Assembly: GCA_937873695.1 (NCBI GenBank)
Contig: CALMYL010000006.1
Coordinates: 62,001 to 126,000 of the forward strand
Direction: 5' to 3'
From: an uncultured Ignavibacteria bacterium
GTDB taxonomy: Bacteria > Bacteroidota > Ignavibacteria > Tepidaquicellales > OLB5
DNA length: 64,000 nucleotides
Position 1 is the first letter of the stretch, and each line of letters starts with the position of its first letter. The position numbers were made by a program, and so were the translations under genes. Under the pieces are notes generated by a model. The model ran no database searches. It was not told where the DNA came from and worked only from the letters and a program-made list of their open reading frames with translations. Below, in pieces: positions 51,385 to 56,728 of this stretch.

Positions 51385-51434
51385 AAGACAAATTGTTGCA
51401 AAACAGAGTGTTTTTGGTGTTTTTTTGTGTAAGC

Positions 51435-51586
51435 GGCCTACGACTTATCAAATCGTAGATTTGAGAAGTGAAATTGGCGGAAGTTTTATTCTTATAATTA
51501 TTGCGGGAATGGCCTACGACTTATCAAATCGTAGATTTGAGAAGTGAAATTGGCGGAAGTTTTATTCTTATAATTATAGCGGGAAT
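51435..51586 (+). repeat. 76-bp tandem duplication carrying the tRNA 5' end
   Basis: Two copies of a 76-base unit (51435-51510, 51511-51586) are identical except for one base near the end (ATTATTGCGGG against ATTATAGCGGG). Each ends with GCGGGAAT, which in the second copy is the first eight bases of tRNA-Leu. The copies join the tRNA at a shared GGC. Each unit includes a hairpin (CTACGA ... TCGTAG) and TATAAT, so the tRNA's upstream region is doubled. Confidence 0.9.
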
Positions 51587-51661
51587 GGCGAAATTGGCAG
51601 ACGCACCATCTTGAGGGGGTGGCGCTCACAAGGCATGGGGGTTCAAGTCCCCCTTCCCGCA
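51579..51661 (+). tRNA. tRNA-Leu (anticodon GAG)
   Basis: The cloverleaf is complete: acceptor GCGGGAA/TTCCCGC with discriminator A, D arm GCG/CGC, and anticodon stem CCATC/GGTGG around TTGAGGG, which gives anticodon GAG. The class II variable arm is CGCTCACAAGGCAT (short stem GCT/GGC), and the T arm is GGGGG-TTCAAGT-CCCCC. CCA is not encoded. A terminator follows at 51667-51693. It is flanked on both sides by partial copies of itself. Confidence 0.95.
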
Positions 51662-51666
51662 CGAAG

Positions 51667-51694
51667 AAAGGAGAGCAAATAGCTCTCCTTTTTG
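51667..51694 (+). terminator. Terminator after tRNA-Leu
   Basis: AAAGGAGAGC and GCTCTCCTTT form a 10-bp stem with a 5-base loop followed by T residues. Confidence 0.9.
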
Positions 51695-51721: not shown

Positions 51722-51820
51722 CGGCATGGGGTTCCTCCAAAGGTCCGAAGGACTCTTTGAGAGTCCCTTTGGGAAAGTCCCCCTTCCCGCACGAAAAAGG
51801 AGAGTTATTTATTCTCCCTT
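51722..51820 (+). pseudogene. Disrupted second copy of the tRNA-Leu 3' end
   Basis: GGCATGGGGTTC (51723-51734) matches the tRNA from the variable arm into the T arm. After about 40 inserted bases, AAGTCCCCCTTCCCGCACGA (51775-51794) matches the tRNA end and continues to a degenerate terminator (AAAGGAGAG ... TTCTCC). The inserted stretch folds on itself (GGACTC-TTTGA-GAGTCC, with outer pairs TCCAAAGG/CCTTTGGGA). It cannot make a tRNA. It was once a copy of the 3' half of this tRNA plus its terminator. Confidence 0.85.
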
Positions 51821-51835
51821 CTTTATCATCATTTT

Positions 51836-53032
51836 TTACTTTATCAAAAGCATTTTCTTTGTCTGAAGAAATGTCGGCGTTGATAGAGTATAGAAGTATA
51901 CACCTGAACTAAGCCCGGATGCATCCCATTCGATTTCATAACTTCCCGGTTCGAAGTGATCATTGGTCAAAATCCTGACCTTTTGACCCGCGCTGTTATA
52001 AATTGCAAGTGTTACAAGTTCGTTTTTCGCAATTGAGAACATTATTGTAGTTGAAGGGTTAAATGGATTGGGATAATTTTGATATAGTGAAGTATTTTCA
52101 GGCATTTCATTTGATTTCGTAATTAAGCCTACCAGATTTCCAATTTGTCTTCTGTAAACCCCGTTTGCGGATGCTCCTGCAAATAAGTAATTGTTTACAA
52201 TACGAAGGGAATGTATTGTTATGTTGCCAAGCCCTTCATTCCTTTGAGTCCAGCTTACGCCATTATCTTCTGATACAAAAACACCATGCAGCTCAGTACC
52301 TGCAAATACGTTGCTGCCGCTTACTGCCAGTGAATAAACCAGTTCATTATTCAGTGAGGTTTGAGTCCATGTATATCCGCTATCACTTGAGTAATAAACA
52401 CCGCTGCCGGTTCCCGCAAAGGCTATGTTACCGTTTAAAGATAAAGAGTAAACCGACTTATAATTTAATGAGCTCGAAGACCAGTTTGTTCCGTTGTTTG
52501 TTGATATAAAAACACCTTCTGAATTCCCGCAGCCGGCTAGTAAAAAAGTTCCGTTGACTGCCAGCGCCTTTACGCTTTGTGTATTTAACTGGCTTATAAA
52601 CCAGCCTGTACCTCCTGCGGAATAGAATAATCCGGAATTATGTGAGCCAACAAACACCCTTGACTGGTTTGAAGCTAAAGAATACATTGTTGTATTATTT
52701 AATGACGTATAGCTCCAGTATGCCCCGTTATTTGAAGTCCTCCAGACTCCCAGCTCACATGCTGCATACAGGTAACCGCCAAATTCTGTTACCGCATATG
52801 TGATATTAAAATAGTTAACTCCCGCCGGGTTCCAGTTTGTACCATTATCAGATGAAAGGTATAATCCATGATTTGAAGACCCCGCGTAAATATAGTTGCT
52901 GTTATTATACAAAGAATAAACCGGTCTGTTGCCTATGCCCGTTGAAACATTTTCCCACTGGGCAATTGTAACCTGTGCTGAGAATATTATTAAGAAAACT
53001 ATTGATAAAACGGACCTTATTAATGTTCTCAT
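51836..53032 (-). CDS. T9SS-secreted Asp-box beta-propeller
   Basis: This 398-residue protein has a signal peptide (to about residue 24) and repeats with S-x-N-G-x-x-W units: SSDNGTNWN, TSNNGAYWS, STNNGTNWS, SSDSGYTWT, SEDNGVSWT. It ends in a T9SS type A sorting domain ([18 protein letters not shown] ... KKMLLIK). It is probably a surface-binding or sensor-like propeller, with no catalytic residues known to me. Its ATG overlaps the stop of the upstream propeller gene (ATGA), so the two are co-translated. Confidence 0.9.
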   Translation of the reverse strand: MRTLIRSVLSIVFLIIFSAQVTIAQWENVSTGIGNRPVYSLYNNSNYIYAGSSNHGLYLSSDNGTNWNPAGVNYFNITYAVTEFGGYLYAACELGVWRTSNNGAYWSYTSLNNTTMYSLASNQSRVFVGSHNSGLFYSAGGTGWFISQLNTQSVKALAVNGTFLLAGCGNSEGVFISTNNGTNWSSSSLNYKSVYSLSLNGNIAFAGTGSGVYYSSDSGYTWTQTSLNNELVYSLAVSGSNVFAGTELHGVFVSEDNGVSWTQRNEGLGNITIHSLRIVNNYLFAGASANGVYRRQIGNLVGLITKSNEMPENTSLYQNYPNPFNPSTTIMFSIAKNELVTLAIYNSAGQKVRILTNDHFEPGSYEIEWDASGLSSGVYFYTLSTPTFLQTKKMLLIK

Positions 53033-54381
53033 TTTGTTAATATCATCTTTTTAGTAGATGTAAAATTTTTGGTTTTTATTGTATAGAAATATACACCGCT
53101 TGATAATCCTGCAGCATCAAATGTGATTTCATGGCTGCCCGCATCCATTTGCCCGTTAAGAAGTACAACTGCTGCGCTTCCGGTAACATCATATACAGTA
53201 ATGTTTACCATTTCTGATTTTGGAATGTCGAAGCTTATCTTTGTTGTTGGGTTGAATGGATTTGGATAATTCTGTGACAGATTATAATCTTCCGGTATGG
53301 TTGAATTTGAATTATTAACGCCTGTTAACAGTCCATCCCATTGCGCTACATTACTATATGGTGAACTGAATATTCCTCCGCAGACTAGATTTCCGTTAAA
53401 AATGCACATTGCAAAAGCGCCGCAAGCGTTTCCGTAACCAAAACCGCCTCCCAAACCCGACCATGTTGTACCATTCCATTTTGCAATACCGTTTACTGTT
53501 TGACCGCCTGCTGTTGTGTATAATCCACCTGCATATACATCATTTCCGTAAACTAATATAGCAAATACATACGGGTATGTCCCGCCGCCGACTCCGCCTC
53601 CAAGATTTGACCACGATGTGCCATCCCAACCTGCAATACAGTTATATGAAGAAGACAGGCTGCCCGCATACAATTTACCATTGCCGGAGGCTACCGAGTA
53701 AACAATCCCGGGAATGCCTGTTCCAATTGGTGACCAGCCAGATCCATCCCACTGTGCTACGTGGCTTGCAGATATACCTCCGGCTGTTGAAAAGAATCCG
53801 CCGGCAATTAGTCTATTGTTGTATGTTGTTAATGCCATGACCTGTGAATTAGTTCCGCTTCCGAGGGCAACCCAGCCGCCATTGCTGTTCCATTTTGCAA
53901 TATGATTTGCAGTCATGTTTTCTACTGCTGTGAAATATCCGCCGACTACCAGGTCACCGTTGTATACTGTTAATGCTGAAACAATACTGTTTGGTCCGCC
54001 GCTTATATCAGCCCATTCAACGCCATCCCATTGAGCAATATTTTTCATTTCCAATCCGCCGGCCAACGTAAACGAACCGCCTACAATCAGTTTTCCGTTA
54101 TATACAACCAGTGCATTTACAGTCCCGTTGATTCCGCCAAAATCACTCCAGGTAGTACCATCAAATTTTTTCAGCCCGTTTCCGCCGCTTCCGCTCTGCT
54201 CACCGGCGTAAAGCTCATTATTATAAACCACTAATGAATATTCCCAATTAGTTCCGCCTCCTAAAGGAGACCAGCCCTGAGAATAAGACTGTGAGGTTAA
54301 AATGAAAATAAGCATCAAAATACCCGTGGCTAGGGTGAAAACCTTTTTCGAAATTGAAGAAATGTTAGTTTTTGTCATCAT
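53029..54381 (-). CDS. T9SS-secreted beta-propeller with W-G repeats
   Basis: This 450-residue protein has a signal peptide (to about residue 34) and six or seven repeats of the form IAQWDG-x-W-x-x-LGGG (VAQWDGSGWSPIGTG, IAGWDGTSWSNLGGG, IAKWNGTTWSGLGGG). A T9SS type A sorting domain follows ([18 protein letters not shown] ... KKMILTK). It looks like a beta-propeller of about seven blades. It is the first gene of a two-gene unit with the 51836-53032 gene, which overlaps it by 4 bases. Confidence 0.9.
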   Translation of the reverse strand: MMTKTNISSISKKVFTLATGILMLIFILTSQSYSQGWSPLGGGTNWEYSLVVYNNELYAGEQSGSGGNGLKKFDGTTWSDFGGINGTVNALVVYNGKLIVGGSFTLAGGLEMKNIAQWDGVEWADISGGPNSIVSALTVYNGDLVVGGYFTAVENMTANHIAKWNSNGGWVALGSGTNSQVMALTTYNNRLIAGGFFSTAGGISASHVAQWDGSGWSPIGTGIPGIVYSVASGNGKLYAGSLSSSYNCIAGWDGTSWSNLGGGVGGGTYPYVFAILVYGNDVYAGGLYTTAGGQTVNGIAKWNGTTWSGLGGGFGYGNACGAFAMCIFNGNLVCGGIFSSPYSNVAQWDGLLTGVNNSNSTIPEDYNLSQNYPNPFNPTTKISFDIPKSEMVNITVYDVTGSAAVVLLNGQMDAGSHEITFDAAGLSSGVYFYTIKTKNFTSTKKMILTK

Positions 54382-54542
54382 CTGATATGTATTATTTTAA
54401 ATTTCTTTTACTATTACCGGTTAATATTACCAGGGTCAGAAAACCATAAGGGTTTTGACTTTGTTCAATACATACAAAATTAACTCCGTTATTCTAAACG
54501 CAGTATTAATGAATTCTTAAAAAACGCTAAAAATTTAAACTA

Positions 54543-55946
54543 TTATAATAATAGGGATTTATCTATGTCTTTTTTATCAAAACTTAGCGAAACGGTTGTT
54601 CCTTTAAGGATTTCGCTTGAGAAACTTACTTTTATTTTTTGAAGGTCAGCAAGCCTTTTAACAATTGCCATACCTATTCCATGTCCTCCGGCTTCTGTAC
54701 TCCTTGCTTCATCGCTTCTGTAAAATCTGTCAAAAACCCGCATGATCTGTTCCTTACTCATTCCTATTCCATAATCTTTAATTGAGCATATTACTTCATT
54801 TTTTGTTTCAGCCAATATGACATCTATTTGTTTACTTTCGTTTGAGTACTTTATGGCATTGGATAGCAGATTTTCAAGAATAATATCAAGCAGTGAGGGA
54901 TCGGCACAAACAAAATATTTTTTATCTTCATTAAAATTGATAATTATACCTTTATCTCCGGCATACTCATATAGTCTGTGGATACAATATTGAACGTTTT
55001 GGTTCAGCTCAATTTTAATTTCATTTGTATGAACTTCCTCACTTTCAAACCTGGCCAGCAATAAAAGCTGATCTATGAGAACACCTATTCGGTCAACTTC
55101 TTTAATGCAATATTGAATTTTGTTTTGATACTGTGAGACGTCTCTCGGTTTTCTTATAAGTACTTCTAGAGTTCCTTTGATCACTGAAAGGGGAGTGCGA
55201 AGCTCATGAGACGCATCCGCGGTAAATTGTTTCTCACGTAAGACAGCGTCTTCAAGCCTGTTCATCAGTCCGTTTATAGTTCCCGCCAGTTCAAAAATTT
55301 CATCTTTATTCTTTGGCAGGTCAATTCTTGTCCCGAGACTTTCTTTAGTTATCTTCTGTGCCTCGTCATTTATTTTCTTAAGCGGCGTTATACTTTTTCC
55401 GGCAATGTATCTGGAAATAAAGAACAGGATCATAAGTAAAACAGGATAACTTATTAACAGAACATTTTTTAAGCTGGAAATAACATTTATTGCGCCTTCC
55501 ACAGGAATTGCAACTATTATGTATCCAATGAGCTTACCTTTCCTGTTAATTATTGGACGCTGCAGCAGCCTTATCGGTTTATCTGAGATTCGTGAATTAA
55601 AGTTTTCTGTGATCCCCGGCGTTATACTTAAGGAATCGTTCTTTAGGTTGGGTGTTTTTTTCAGGGATATCTTTTCTGTATTTGCAACTTCTGCGAATAT
55701 CGGGTAAACTTCAACATTTGAATGCTCTTTTTCTGACCATTCTGATTCATCTGTAAAATAAATAGAATCAAGATTCATATCAATATCATCCAGTATGTCA
55801 AGGGCTTCAAACTCAAGGCGTTCATCAAGTGTTTTGAAAGAAGTATCATAAACAACCTGGTATATTACCACAAACAGCAGTAGTGTAATTACCGATGTTG
55901 CGCTAAGATAGAATAATGCTATTCTGTTTCTCAGGCTTAAGCTCAA
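54543..55946 (-). CDS. Two-component sensor histidine kinase
   Basis: This 467-residue membrane kinase has two transmembrane helices (about 10-30 and 160-180) around a periplasmic sensor region of about 130 residues, a HAMP domain, a HisKA domain with His247 in ASHELRTPLS and a HATPase domain with NAIKYS, DYGIGM and GGHGIGMAI. It resembles CusS- or ArlS-type kinases. The start is TTG, 11 bases after the response regulator stop, so the two are one operon. The signal is unknown. Confidence 0.93.
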   Translation of the reverse strand: MSLSLRNRIALFYLSATSVITLLLFVVIYQVVYDTSFKTLDERLEFEALDILDDIDMNLDSIYFTDESEWSEKEHSNVEVYPIFAEVANTEKISLKKTPNLKNDSLSITPGITENFNSRISDKPIRLLQRPIINRKGKLIGYIIVAIPVEGAINVISSLKNVLLISYPVLLMILFFISRYIAGKSITPLKKINDEAQKITKESLGTRIDLPKNKDEIFELAGTINGLMNRLEDAVLREKQFTADASHELRTPLSVIKGTLEVLIRKPRDVSQYQNKIQYCIKEVDRIGVLIDQLLLLARFESEEVHTNEIKIELNQNVQYCIHRLYEYAGDKGIIINFNEDKKYFVCADPSLLDIILENLLSNAIKYSNESKQIDVILAETKNEVICSIKDYGIGMSKEQIMRVFDRFYRSDEARSTEAGGHGIGMAIVKRLADLQKIKVSFSSEILKGTTVSLSFDKKDIDKSLLL

Positions 55947-55957
55947 TTTTATATATT

Positions 55958-56728
55958 TTATTTATCCCGGGTAATGTAGCCCACACCCCTTATAGTATGG
56001 ATAAGTTCTTTTTCTTTTCCCCCGGGATTCAGTTTTTTCCTTAGAAAATTTATATAAACATCAATTATTGATGTATCTGAATCAAAATGTATATCCCAAA
56101 CGTGTTCAATAATATTCGTTCGTGTGCATACCTTTTCTTTGTTCCTTATAAGATACTCAAGAAGCGAGAACTCTTTTGGAGTCAGTTCAATTTCTTTTGC
56201 ATTTCGGAATACACGGTGTGTACCAAGATTCATTTCAATATCACCTAGTTTAAGAACAGTTTGTTCGCCTGATCTTGTTTTTAGCTGTACCCTTATGCGG
56301 GCAAGTAACTCATCAAATTCAAATGGTTTCTTTATATAATCATTAGCCCCTGCTTCCAGACCGAAGACAACATCCTGTACGGTGTCGCGGGCTGTAAGGA
56401 ATATGACAGGAGATGTTTGATTCAGTTTTCTGAATTCGCGGCAAAGCTCAATTCCGCTTAGCCCGGGAAGCATCCAGTCAAATATAAGCAGGTCGTAGTC
56501 ATTGGATGAAGCAAGTTCTAATCCTTTTCTGCCGTCAACCGCAAAATCAACGGCAAAACCTTCTTCTTCAAGTCCGTCTTTCAGAAAATTTGAAATACCC
56601 TTTTCATCTTCTACTATCAGAATTCTCATGATTTCATCAAATTCATTTTGTGCGCTGTCAATTGTTTTAATATCCGGTAAACTATCAACTGTAAAAGTTG
56701 AATTCGGCATTTTTTCGGTATCTATCAT
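55958..56728 (-). CDS. OmpR-family response regulator
   Basis: The protein has a receiver domain (VEDE acidic site, phosphoacceptor in LLIFDWMLPG, Asp84 by this count or Asp51 from the internal Met) and a C-terminal winged-helix DNA-binding domain (GDIEMNLGTHRVFRNAKEIELTPKEFSLLEYL ... DVYINFLRKKL). An ATG at 56728 gives 256 residues with a 33-residue N-terminal extension; the internal ATG at 56629 starts with the usual MRILIVEDE and gives 223. Neither has a clear ribosome binding site. I list the longer form but favour the shorter. It pairs with the downstream kinase. Confidence 0.93.
   Translation of the reverse strand: MIDTEKMPNSTFTVDSLPDIKTIDSAQNEFDEIMRILIVEDEKGISNFLKDGLEEEGFAVDFAVDGRKGLELASSNDYDLLIFDWMLPGLSGIELCREFRKLNQTSPVIFLTARDTVQDVVFGLEAGANDYIKKPFEFDELLARIRVQLKTRSGEQTVLKLGDIEMNLGTHRVFRNAKEIELTPKEFSLLEYLIRNKEKVCTRTNIIEHVWDIHFDSDTSIIDVYINFLRKKLNPGGKEKELIHTIRGVGYITRDK

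Follow-up and report, generated by a model that had tools for sequence, protein, structure and literature searches.

Hairpin-bearing tRNA copies in Ignavibacteria and their possible link to small GIY-YIG nuclease genes

Very short dispersed double hairpins occur in Allomyces mitochondrial DNA (Paquin 2000, cited in PMC5910586), and sponge mitochondrial DNA harbors RHE, short hairpins dispersed in spacers and sometimes inside genes (PMC2800124). In bacteria, REP/REPIN elements are associated with RAYT (TnpA-REP) transposases (PMC3116915, PMC8266576, PMC2817692), and chromosomal integration commonly leaves partial tRNA copies (PMC9897764). The locus analyzed here resembles each of these systems and departs from each. 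Like the mitochondrial hairpins and RHE, its hairpins are very short, dispersed and conserved in their stems; unlike them, they reside in bacterial chromosomes, at palindrome centers and in the T loops of copies beside intact tRNA genes, with GIY-YIG genes at some sites. REP/REPIN elements likewise are short dispersed palindromes with two hairpins back to back in genomes with Y1-type genes, whereas the unit here is 22 nt, shorter than usual, occupies tRNA copies, and leaves Y1_Tnp genes unflanked (1/10). Integrative elements also yield one intact and one partial tRNA copy, but the copies here are ~100-500 bp apart, form tandem arrays, carry hairpins in their loops and are not accompanied by an integrase.

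Free-standing GIY-YIG homing endonucleases lie beside tRNA genes, as exemplified by SegB of phage T4. The genes reported here similarly place a GIY-YIG protein in a tRNA region; unlike SegB-type enzymes, this protein is ~80 aa, UPF0213-like and bacterial, and its gene adjoins a hairpin-bearing tRNA copy. The tyrT repeats of E. coli (rtT), which hold 19 nt of the tRNA-Tyr 3' end, offer a further parallel as tandem repeats 3' of a tRNA gene that repeat its last 18-19 nt; we know of no loop hairpins or GIY-YIG gene there, in which respect the present loci differ. A search of an open-licence literature collection found no description of the combination seen here; for the GIY-YIG/tRNA arrangement we make no claim of novelty.

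The tRNA-Leu(GAG) locus of the window

The window is a 64,000-nt stretch (G000:C6:62001-126000) of a 3.78-Mb draft genome in 30 contigs (G000). Partial copies stand on both the 5' and the 3' side of its intact tRNA-Leu(GAG) (Table 1), as a sequence-only reading of the same DNA had proposed. That reading also described a recurrence of the T arm, acceptor and terminator 130 bases downstream, and this is confirmed: the last 18 nt of the tRNA together with 6 further nt (51645-51668) reappear at 51775-51798 (96%), the 18 tRNA nucleotides being identical to the 3' end of the intact gene. Its coordinates were good to a few bases, the copy beginning at ~51723, directly 5' of which the bases resemble a decayed variable region. 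Spliced alignment revealed that one G is absent from the T stem of the copy and that the self-complementary insert, given earlier as about 40 bases in the T arm, is exactly 40 nt and is located between TTC and AAG of the T loop. Together with its terminator, tRNA-Leu(GAG) has a decayed second copy in tandem, whose T loop received a small double hairpin. An Rfam search of the window matched this tRNA and no other family.

Table 1. Features at the tRNA-Leu(GAG) locus (window positions)
Feature	Position	Strand	Composition or evidence
Upstream unit 1, 76 bp	51422..51497	+	Decayed tRNA 5' piece, then palindrome, GAAATTGGCGGA, AT-rich promoter-like end
Palindrome of unit 1, 32 nt	51438-51469		
Upstream unit 2, 76 bp	51498..51573	+	GCGGGAATGGC, palindrome, GAAATTGGCGGA, AT-rich promoter-like end
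Palindrome of unit 2, 32 nt	51514-51545		
Intact tRNA-Leu(GAG)	51579..51662	+	ARAGORN; Rfam RF00005, 47.4 bits
Terminator hairpin of intact tRNA	51664..51693	+	Hairpin and T run read directly; fold; repeat comparison
3' copy, T arm 5' strand, one G missing, ends TTC	51723..51734	+	Spliced alignment
Nested double-hairpin insert in T loop of 3' copy, 40 nt	51735..51774	+	Spliced alignment; related copies C8:114404, C6:278227, C24:2665
Last 18 nt of tRNA-Leu(GAG) (rest of T loop, T stem, acceptor 3' strand)	51775..51792	+	
Second terminator hairpin copy, 72% to first	51796..51820	+	Repeat comparison

Upstream of the intact gene, the two 76-bp units, whose bounds were set partly by eye, stand in tandem; their tRNA 5'-end pieces are split by a 32-nt palindrome that differs from the T-loop insert. 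In the relative G011, an upstream insert has the same ends as the insert of unit 2 with a fully exchanged stem. BLAST gave no match to the 32-nt insert elsewhere in the genome, and a loose pattern for this insert class was not enriched (4 matches vs 116 for the reversed control).

Reading the relatives by eye disclosed hairpin-bearing tRNA-Leu(GAG) copies also in G002, G003, G004, G008, G010, G011 and G013, the last belonging to the same family outside the genus, and no copy near tRNA-Leu(GAG) in G005, G006, G007, G009 and G012. In G002 the gene is followed by three copies whose D, anticodon and T regions bear hairpins, in a record that contains short N runs.

A dispersed double hairpin at palindrome centers

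The 40-nt insert is a nested version, in inverted orientation, of the 22-nt double hairpin TCCC-GAA-GGGA/CTCC-TTT-GGAG. On the minus strand it runs TCCCAAAGGGA CTC[TCAAAGAGTCCTTCGGAC]CTTTGGAG, which we read as a 22-nt double hairpin enclosing an 18-nt one. The earlier suggestion was that the insert may itself be a small mobile hairpin, and a genome search supports a small hairpin that is dispersed: BLAST matched it to C8:114404 (91%), C6:278227 (85%) and C24:2665 (88%), and more weakly to other places, with a best E value of 6.7e-11. The related 22-nt unit, TCCCRAAGGGACTCCTTTGGAG, has 35 copies in this genome at ≤3 mismatches, and the reversed-pattern control none. It is present in 9 of the 13 genus genomes, this one included (G003, 27; G002, 14; G011, 11; G005, 7; G010, 6; G006, 5; G009, 3; G008, 2); the pattern scan found none in G001, G004, G007 and G012, and the control pattern matched once across the genus, in G008. 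A Marinimicrobia genome (G307, locus L301) holds 43 double-hairpin copies, many with ACCC..GGGT stems.

Most changes in the stems are paired. Among 42 distinct variants, 18 stem changes were paired and kept pairing, 6 were one-sided breaks and 6 were G-U; with 15 further variants from other genomes, these numbers became 26, 12 and 9, respectively. Flanking sequence was then compared across 84 unit contexts, 63 of them non-redundant. In the non-redundant set the mean flank stem was 4.38 bp vs 3.01 bp for shuffled partners (300 permutations, sd 0.15, maximum 3.38). Where the flank stem reached ≥5 bp, the unit lay within a few bases of the dyad center, with offsets of (2,1) or (0,2) in 32/41 contexts, redundant ones included. 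Hosts comprise REP-like CCCCTCTCC palindromes and tRNA T loops. The double hairpin is a dispersed REP-like unit, made of two adjacent short hairpins in many copies, that also sits at the center of other palindromes. Units lie ≤700 nt from an intact tRNA in 7/35 cases vs ~0.6 expected (P=1.6e-6, from hand-counted inputs); the other 28/35 in this genome are not beside a tRNA, which counts against a tRNA-element explanation.

Occupied and empty orthologous sites were found at one locus only, the Ile-gat/Ala-tgc interval. Here G009 lacks a copy, G002 has a copy with T loop GGTTCAACTCC and no hairpin, and the Ile-gat copy in G000 and G003 bears 22 nt between GGTTC and AACTCC, with stems that differ but pair. 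This comparison therefore shows an exact gain or loss of the unit that left no target duplication.

To map the spread of T-loop double hairpins, the pattern GGTTCTNCCRAAGGNACTCNNTNGGAG was scanned across an 84,980-species collection and matched 33 other genome stretches, against a rough, uncomputed chance estimate of <0.1. Titles in 32/33 name Ignavibacteria, Melioribacter, Stygiobacter, Chlorobi OLB5, Bacteroidetes/Bacteroidales, Chitinophagales, Calditrichia, Marinimicrobia or Kryptonia, which we take to be the FCB group; the remaining stretch is titled only 'bacterium'. In 26/33 stretches an intact tRNA is present on the same strand at a distance of ≤800 nt, and in 7 there is none; leaving aside the 22 nt, several copies extend over much or all of the tRNA (Melioribacter, Ignavibacteriaceae, Bacteroidetes). 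Among 247 phylum genomes, the forward pattern marked 19 sites in 9 genomes, and all 10 inverse-pattern matches were forward-pattern places on the other strand. The window insert, inverted relative to nearly all other T-loop copies, is thus an exception in orientation.

Copies at other tRNA genes and adjoining GIY-YIG genes

Scars like the 3' copy of the window recur as a class next to tRNA genes of this genome, the genus and other FCB-group bacteria. Going beyond the sequence-only reading, we observed this scar pattern at a third of the tRNA genes, with GIY-YIG genes at some sites. In the loci analyzed from this genome, ARAGORN identified 42 distinct tRNAs. Searching their own flanks by blastn-short (≥26 bits) gave 36 same-strand partial copies and none on the opposite strand, while spliced alignment to 500-bp flanks placed same-strand copies at 14/42 tRNAs, vs 0/42 for reverse-complemented flanks and 1/84 for flanks of other tRNAs. 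Copies accompanied 3/40 tRNAs in G009, 5/13 in a G002 sample and 1/26 in a sample of G026, from another family; reverse-complement controls were 0.

At all 14 tRNAs the neighboring copies contain hairpins within arms or in place of them. T-loop inserts are exactly 22 nt in the Ile-gat, Ala-tgc, Val-tac, Pro-cgg, Arg-acg and Ala-ggc copies, and those of the Ile, Ala, Val, Pro and Arg copies lack a duplication; anticodon arms are often replaced by TCCCGC..GCGGGA hairpins. In a subset counted by eye, 9/10 double-hairpin-type inserts were in the T loop. Across all inserts of 10-60 nt, 25/37 avoid stem strands vs 53% expected (p=0.055), a non-significant result that leaves loops unproven as the site of every insert type and to which the frequent replacement of arms, as opposed to their interruption, contributes. 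A full-length copy folds with acceptor, D and anticodon arms and an extended T arm. At least 4 identical 111-bp units follow tRNA-Gln(ctg) in G009; each is a copy of the tRNA in which a hairpin takes the place of the anticodon arm.

Three loci (L293, L297 and L279) contain an ORF of ~80 aa with a GIY-YIG domain between tRNA and copy. The L293 protein matches Pfam PF01541 (E=5.6e-16, 59 bits vs a cut-off of 22.6); this test was made on one protein, and the other GIY-YIG ORFs were found by a profile built from it. The closest solved chains are UPF0213 (PDB 1zg2, 1ywl). NCBIfam returned only a sub-threshold group I intron endonuclease match, and a query of plasmid and phage records only distant relatives (<60% identity; 5 plasmid, 18 phage). 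In this genome the profile detected single-domain GIY-YIG ORFs at Ile-tat, Met and Leu-caa and upstream of Trp, the ORF at the Met locus being present twice, in tandem with the copy; others occur at Pro, Met, Ser and Leu loci of G009/G002 and at Asp of G026. GIY-YIG genes beside hairpin-bearing copies were seen at L083, L091, L119, L261, L279, L293 and L297, and at L091 and L261 the gene is tandemly repeated together with the copy. The copy may come before or after the intact tRNA gene at GIY-YIG loci. A long exonuclease-UvrC-like fusion gene adjoins tRNA-Leu(taa) at L115 (G000:C6:29086-30855).

Quantitatively, 121 tRNAs of four genomes were divided into 6 with copy and GIY-YIG, 17 with copy only, 6 with GIY-YIG only and 92 with neither, an association with an odds ratio of 5.4 (one-sided p=0.011) in a statistic that ignores shared ancestry. 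A GIY-YIG gene thus stands at 6/23 copy-bearing tRNAs, with none near 17/23; similarly, it adjoins the copy in 10/26 tRNA-named stretches, with none near 16/26. Contigs C6 and C8 (1.02 Mb, 11 tRNAs) contain no single-domain GIY-YIG gene and only two long UvrC-like matches, and the window and all tRNA-Leu(GAG) loci fetched were free of GIY-YIG genes. In a tree of 21 proteins, those of the genus group in pairs that share a tRNA (starred support for Ile-tat, Pro-cgg and Ser-gct; 94/80 for Leu-caa), and proteins from the sites of other groups cluster with weak support (86/60).

Origin of the hairpin-bearing copies

What is firmly established is that a tRNA 3' copy stands in tandem, that its T loop holds a dispersed double hairpin, and that many tRNAs show the same pattern. 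As to cause, our leading reading, to which we give a probability of about one half, is that hairpin-bearing tRNA copies were left by GIY-YIG elements targeting tRNA genes and that the locus in the window is a relic from which the nuclease is missing. The position of the nuclease gene suggests that its product may take part in making the copies. An element would comprise one gene for a single-domain GIY-YIG endonuclease plus a tRNA copy with hairpins in its loops. Its nuclease would cut the tRNA gene or the hairpin extruded from it, and repair or a single crossover would then place the intact tRNA, the nuclease gene and the hairpin-bearing copy in a row on one strand; depending on the side of the T loop at which the crossover fell, the copy could precede or follow the intact gene. 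A hairpin at the T-loop dyad TTC|GAA would destroy the cut site in the copy. Were the nuclease gene lost or never included, the hairpin-bearing copy would stand alone, as in the window. Several observations count against this scheme: an intact, presumably cuttable tRNA persists beside the copy, the window insert has the minority orientation, the tRNA-Leu(GAG) loci and most copy-bearing tRNAs and named stretches yielded no GIY-YIG gene, most double hairpins lie away from tRNAs, and the avoidance of stem strands falls short of significance.

A broader form of the same proposal, which we put forward only tentatively, envisages an FCB-group family of very small tRNA-gene parasites, each a nuclease of ~80 aa with a tRNA copy whose loops are filled by double hairpins. 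Each lineage would be tied to one tRNA, insert harmlessly beside it and leave hairpin copies at its death, the window being one such remnant. If so, a nuclease element much smaller than any known integrase would be attacking the tRNA genes of a large bacterial group, and the 22-nt double hairpin would mark the T-loop dyad as a nuclease-element site. The tRNA-like debris that troubles annotation programs would be accounted for, and the loci would provide a simple system for how palindrome centers open and fill.

The strongest competitor, possible but to our minds doubtful, dispenses with the nuclease. Ordinary recombination would duplicate tRNA genes in tandem, the spare copies would gather REP-like hairpins at their palindrome centers through a HUH (Y1/RAYT-type) transposase or replication errors, and the GIY-YIG genes would be unrelated hitchhikers. 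In favor of this reading, double hairpins do occur in non-tRNA palindromes, and G002 has a copy without a T-loop hairpin. Y1_Tnp genes are present in 12/13 genus genomes, with 8 Y1-type matches at E≤0.001 in this one, and their number correlates with that of double hairpins (rho 0.60, p=0.029, n=13), although this correlation is confounded by genome quality and size. Against a REP/RAYT arrangement, in which the repeat flanks the transposase gene, only 1 of the 10 Y1_Tnp loci of this genome lies ≤1.5 kb from a double hairpin, and duplication by recombination leaves the position of GIY-YIG genes between intact tRNA and copy unexplained.

It is improbable that the copies are working tRNA-like RNAs, for instance decoys or RNAs that bind the GIY-YIG protein in the manner of RNA antitoxins, with the terminator-bearing tandem arrays as their genes. 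Such a role would suit the tandem units, some with terminators (Val, Ala-ggc and Cys arrays; the G002 Leu-gag array), the stems that keep pairing and the full-length copy that still folds with an extended T arm, but most copies lack their 5' or 3' half, and the characterized GIY-YIG enzymes are known to act on DNA.

We consider it very improbable that the flanking copies are att scars of a lost tyrosine-recombinase element of tRNA-Leu(GAG), although the sequence-only reading had raised integration and loss of an element, with relatives as the place to look for it. An integrated element does exist in G002 (L392/L393, G002:C1:859960-886400), where ~26.5 kb encoding a phage-type integrase, DrmA, DrmB and DrmMII (DISARM) and Vsr lie in tRNA-Leu(GAG) between its 5' half and a complete tRNA. 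Its junction, however, falls at the anticodon region, and copies with hairpins stand beyond each of its ends; this element therefore did not make them, and on these grounds an integrase scar was rejected. Similar tRNA-Leu(GAG) copies occur in relatives where no such integrase element was seen, and no integrase-bearing element separates the copies in the window. Scars of the same kind accompany 13 other tRNAs. Copies also stand in tandem arrays and bear loop hairpins, which, to our knowledge, integrases do not leave.

Ordinary decay of a second tRNA-Leu gene around a chance palindrome, to which the partial copy and its degraded upstream side might point, has next to no standing: the insert matches elsewhere in the genome exclude chance, the 35 dispersed units and the T-loop site shared with other tRNA copies exclude simple decay, and the two intact tRNA-Leu genes in gradual decay, without an insert elsewhere, that would have spoken for it were not seen in relatives.

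Farther downstream in the window (51836-56728), genes for two repeat proteins of the sorting-signal type, a histidine kinase and a response regulator separate the tRNA from a phosphatase gene; in the relatives G009, G011 and G002, the phosphatase gene lies directly 3' of tRNA-Leu(GAG).
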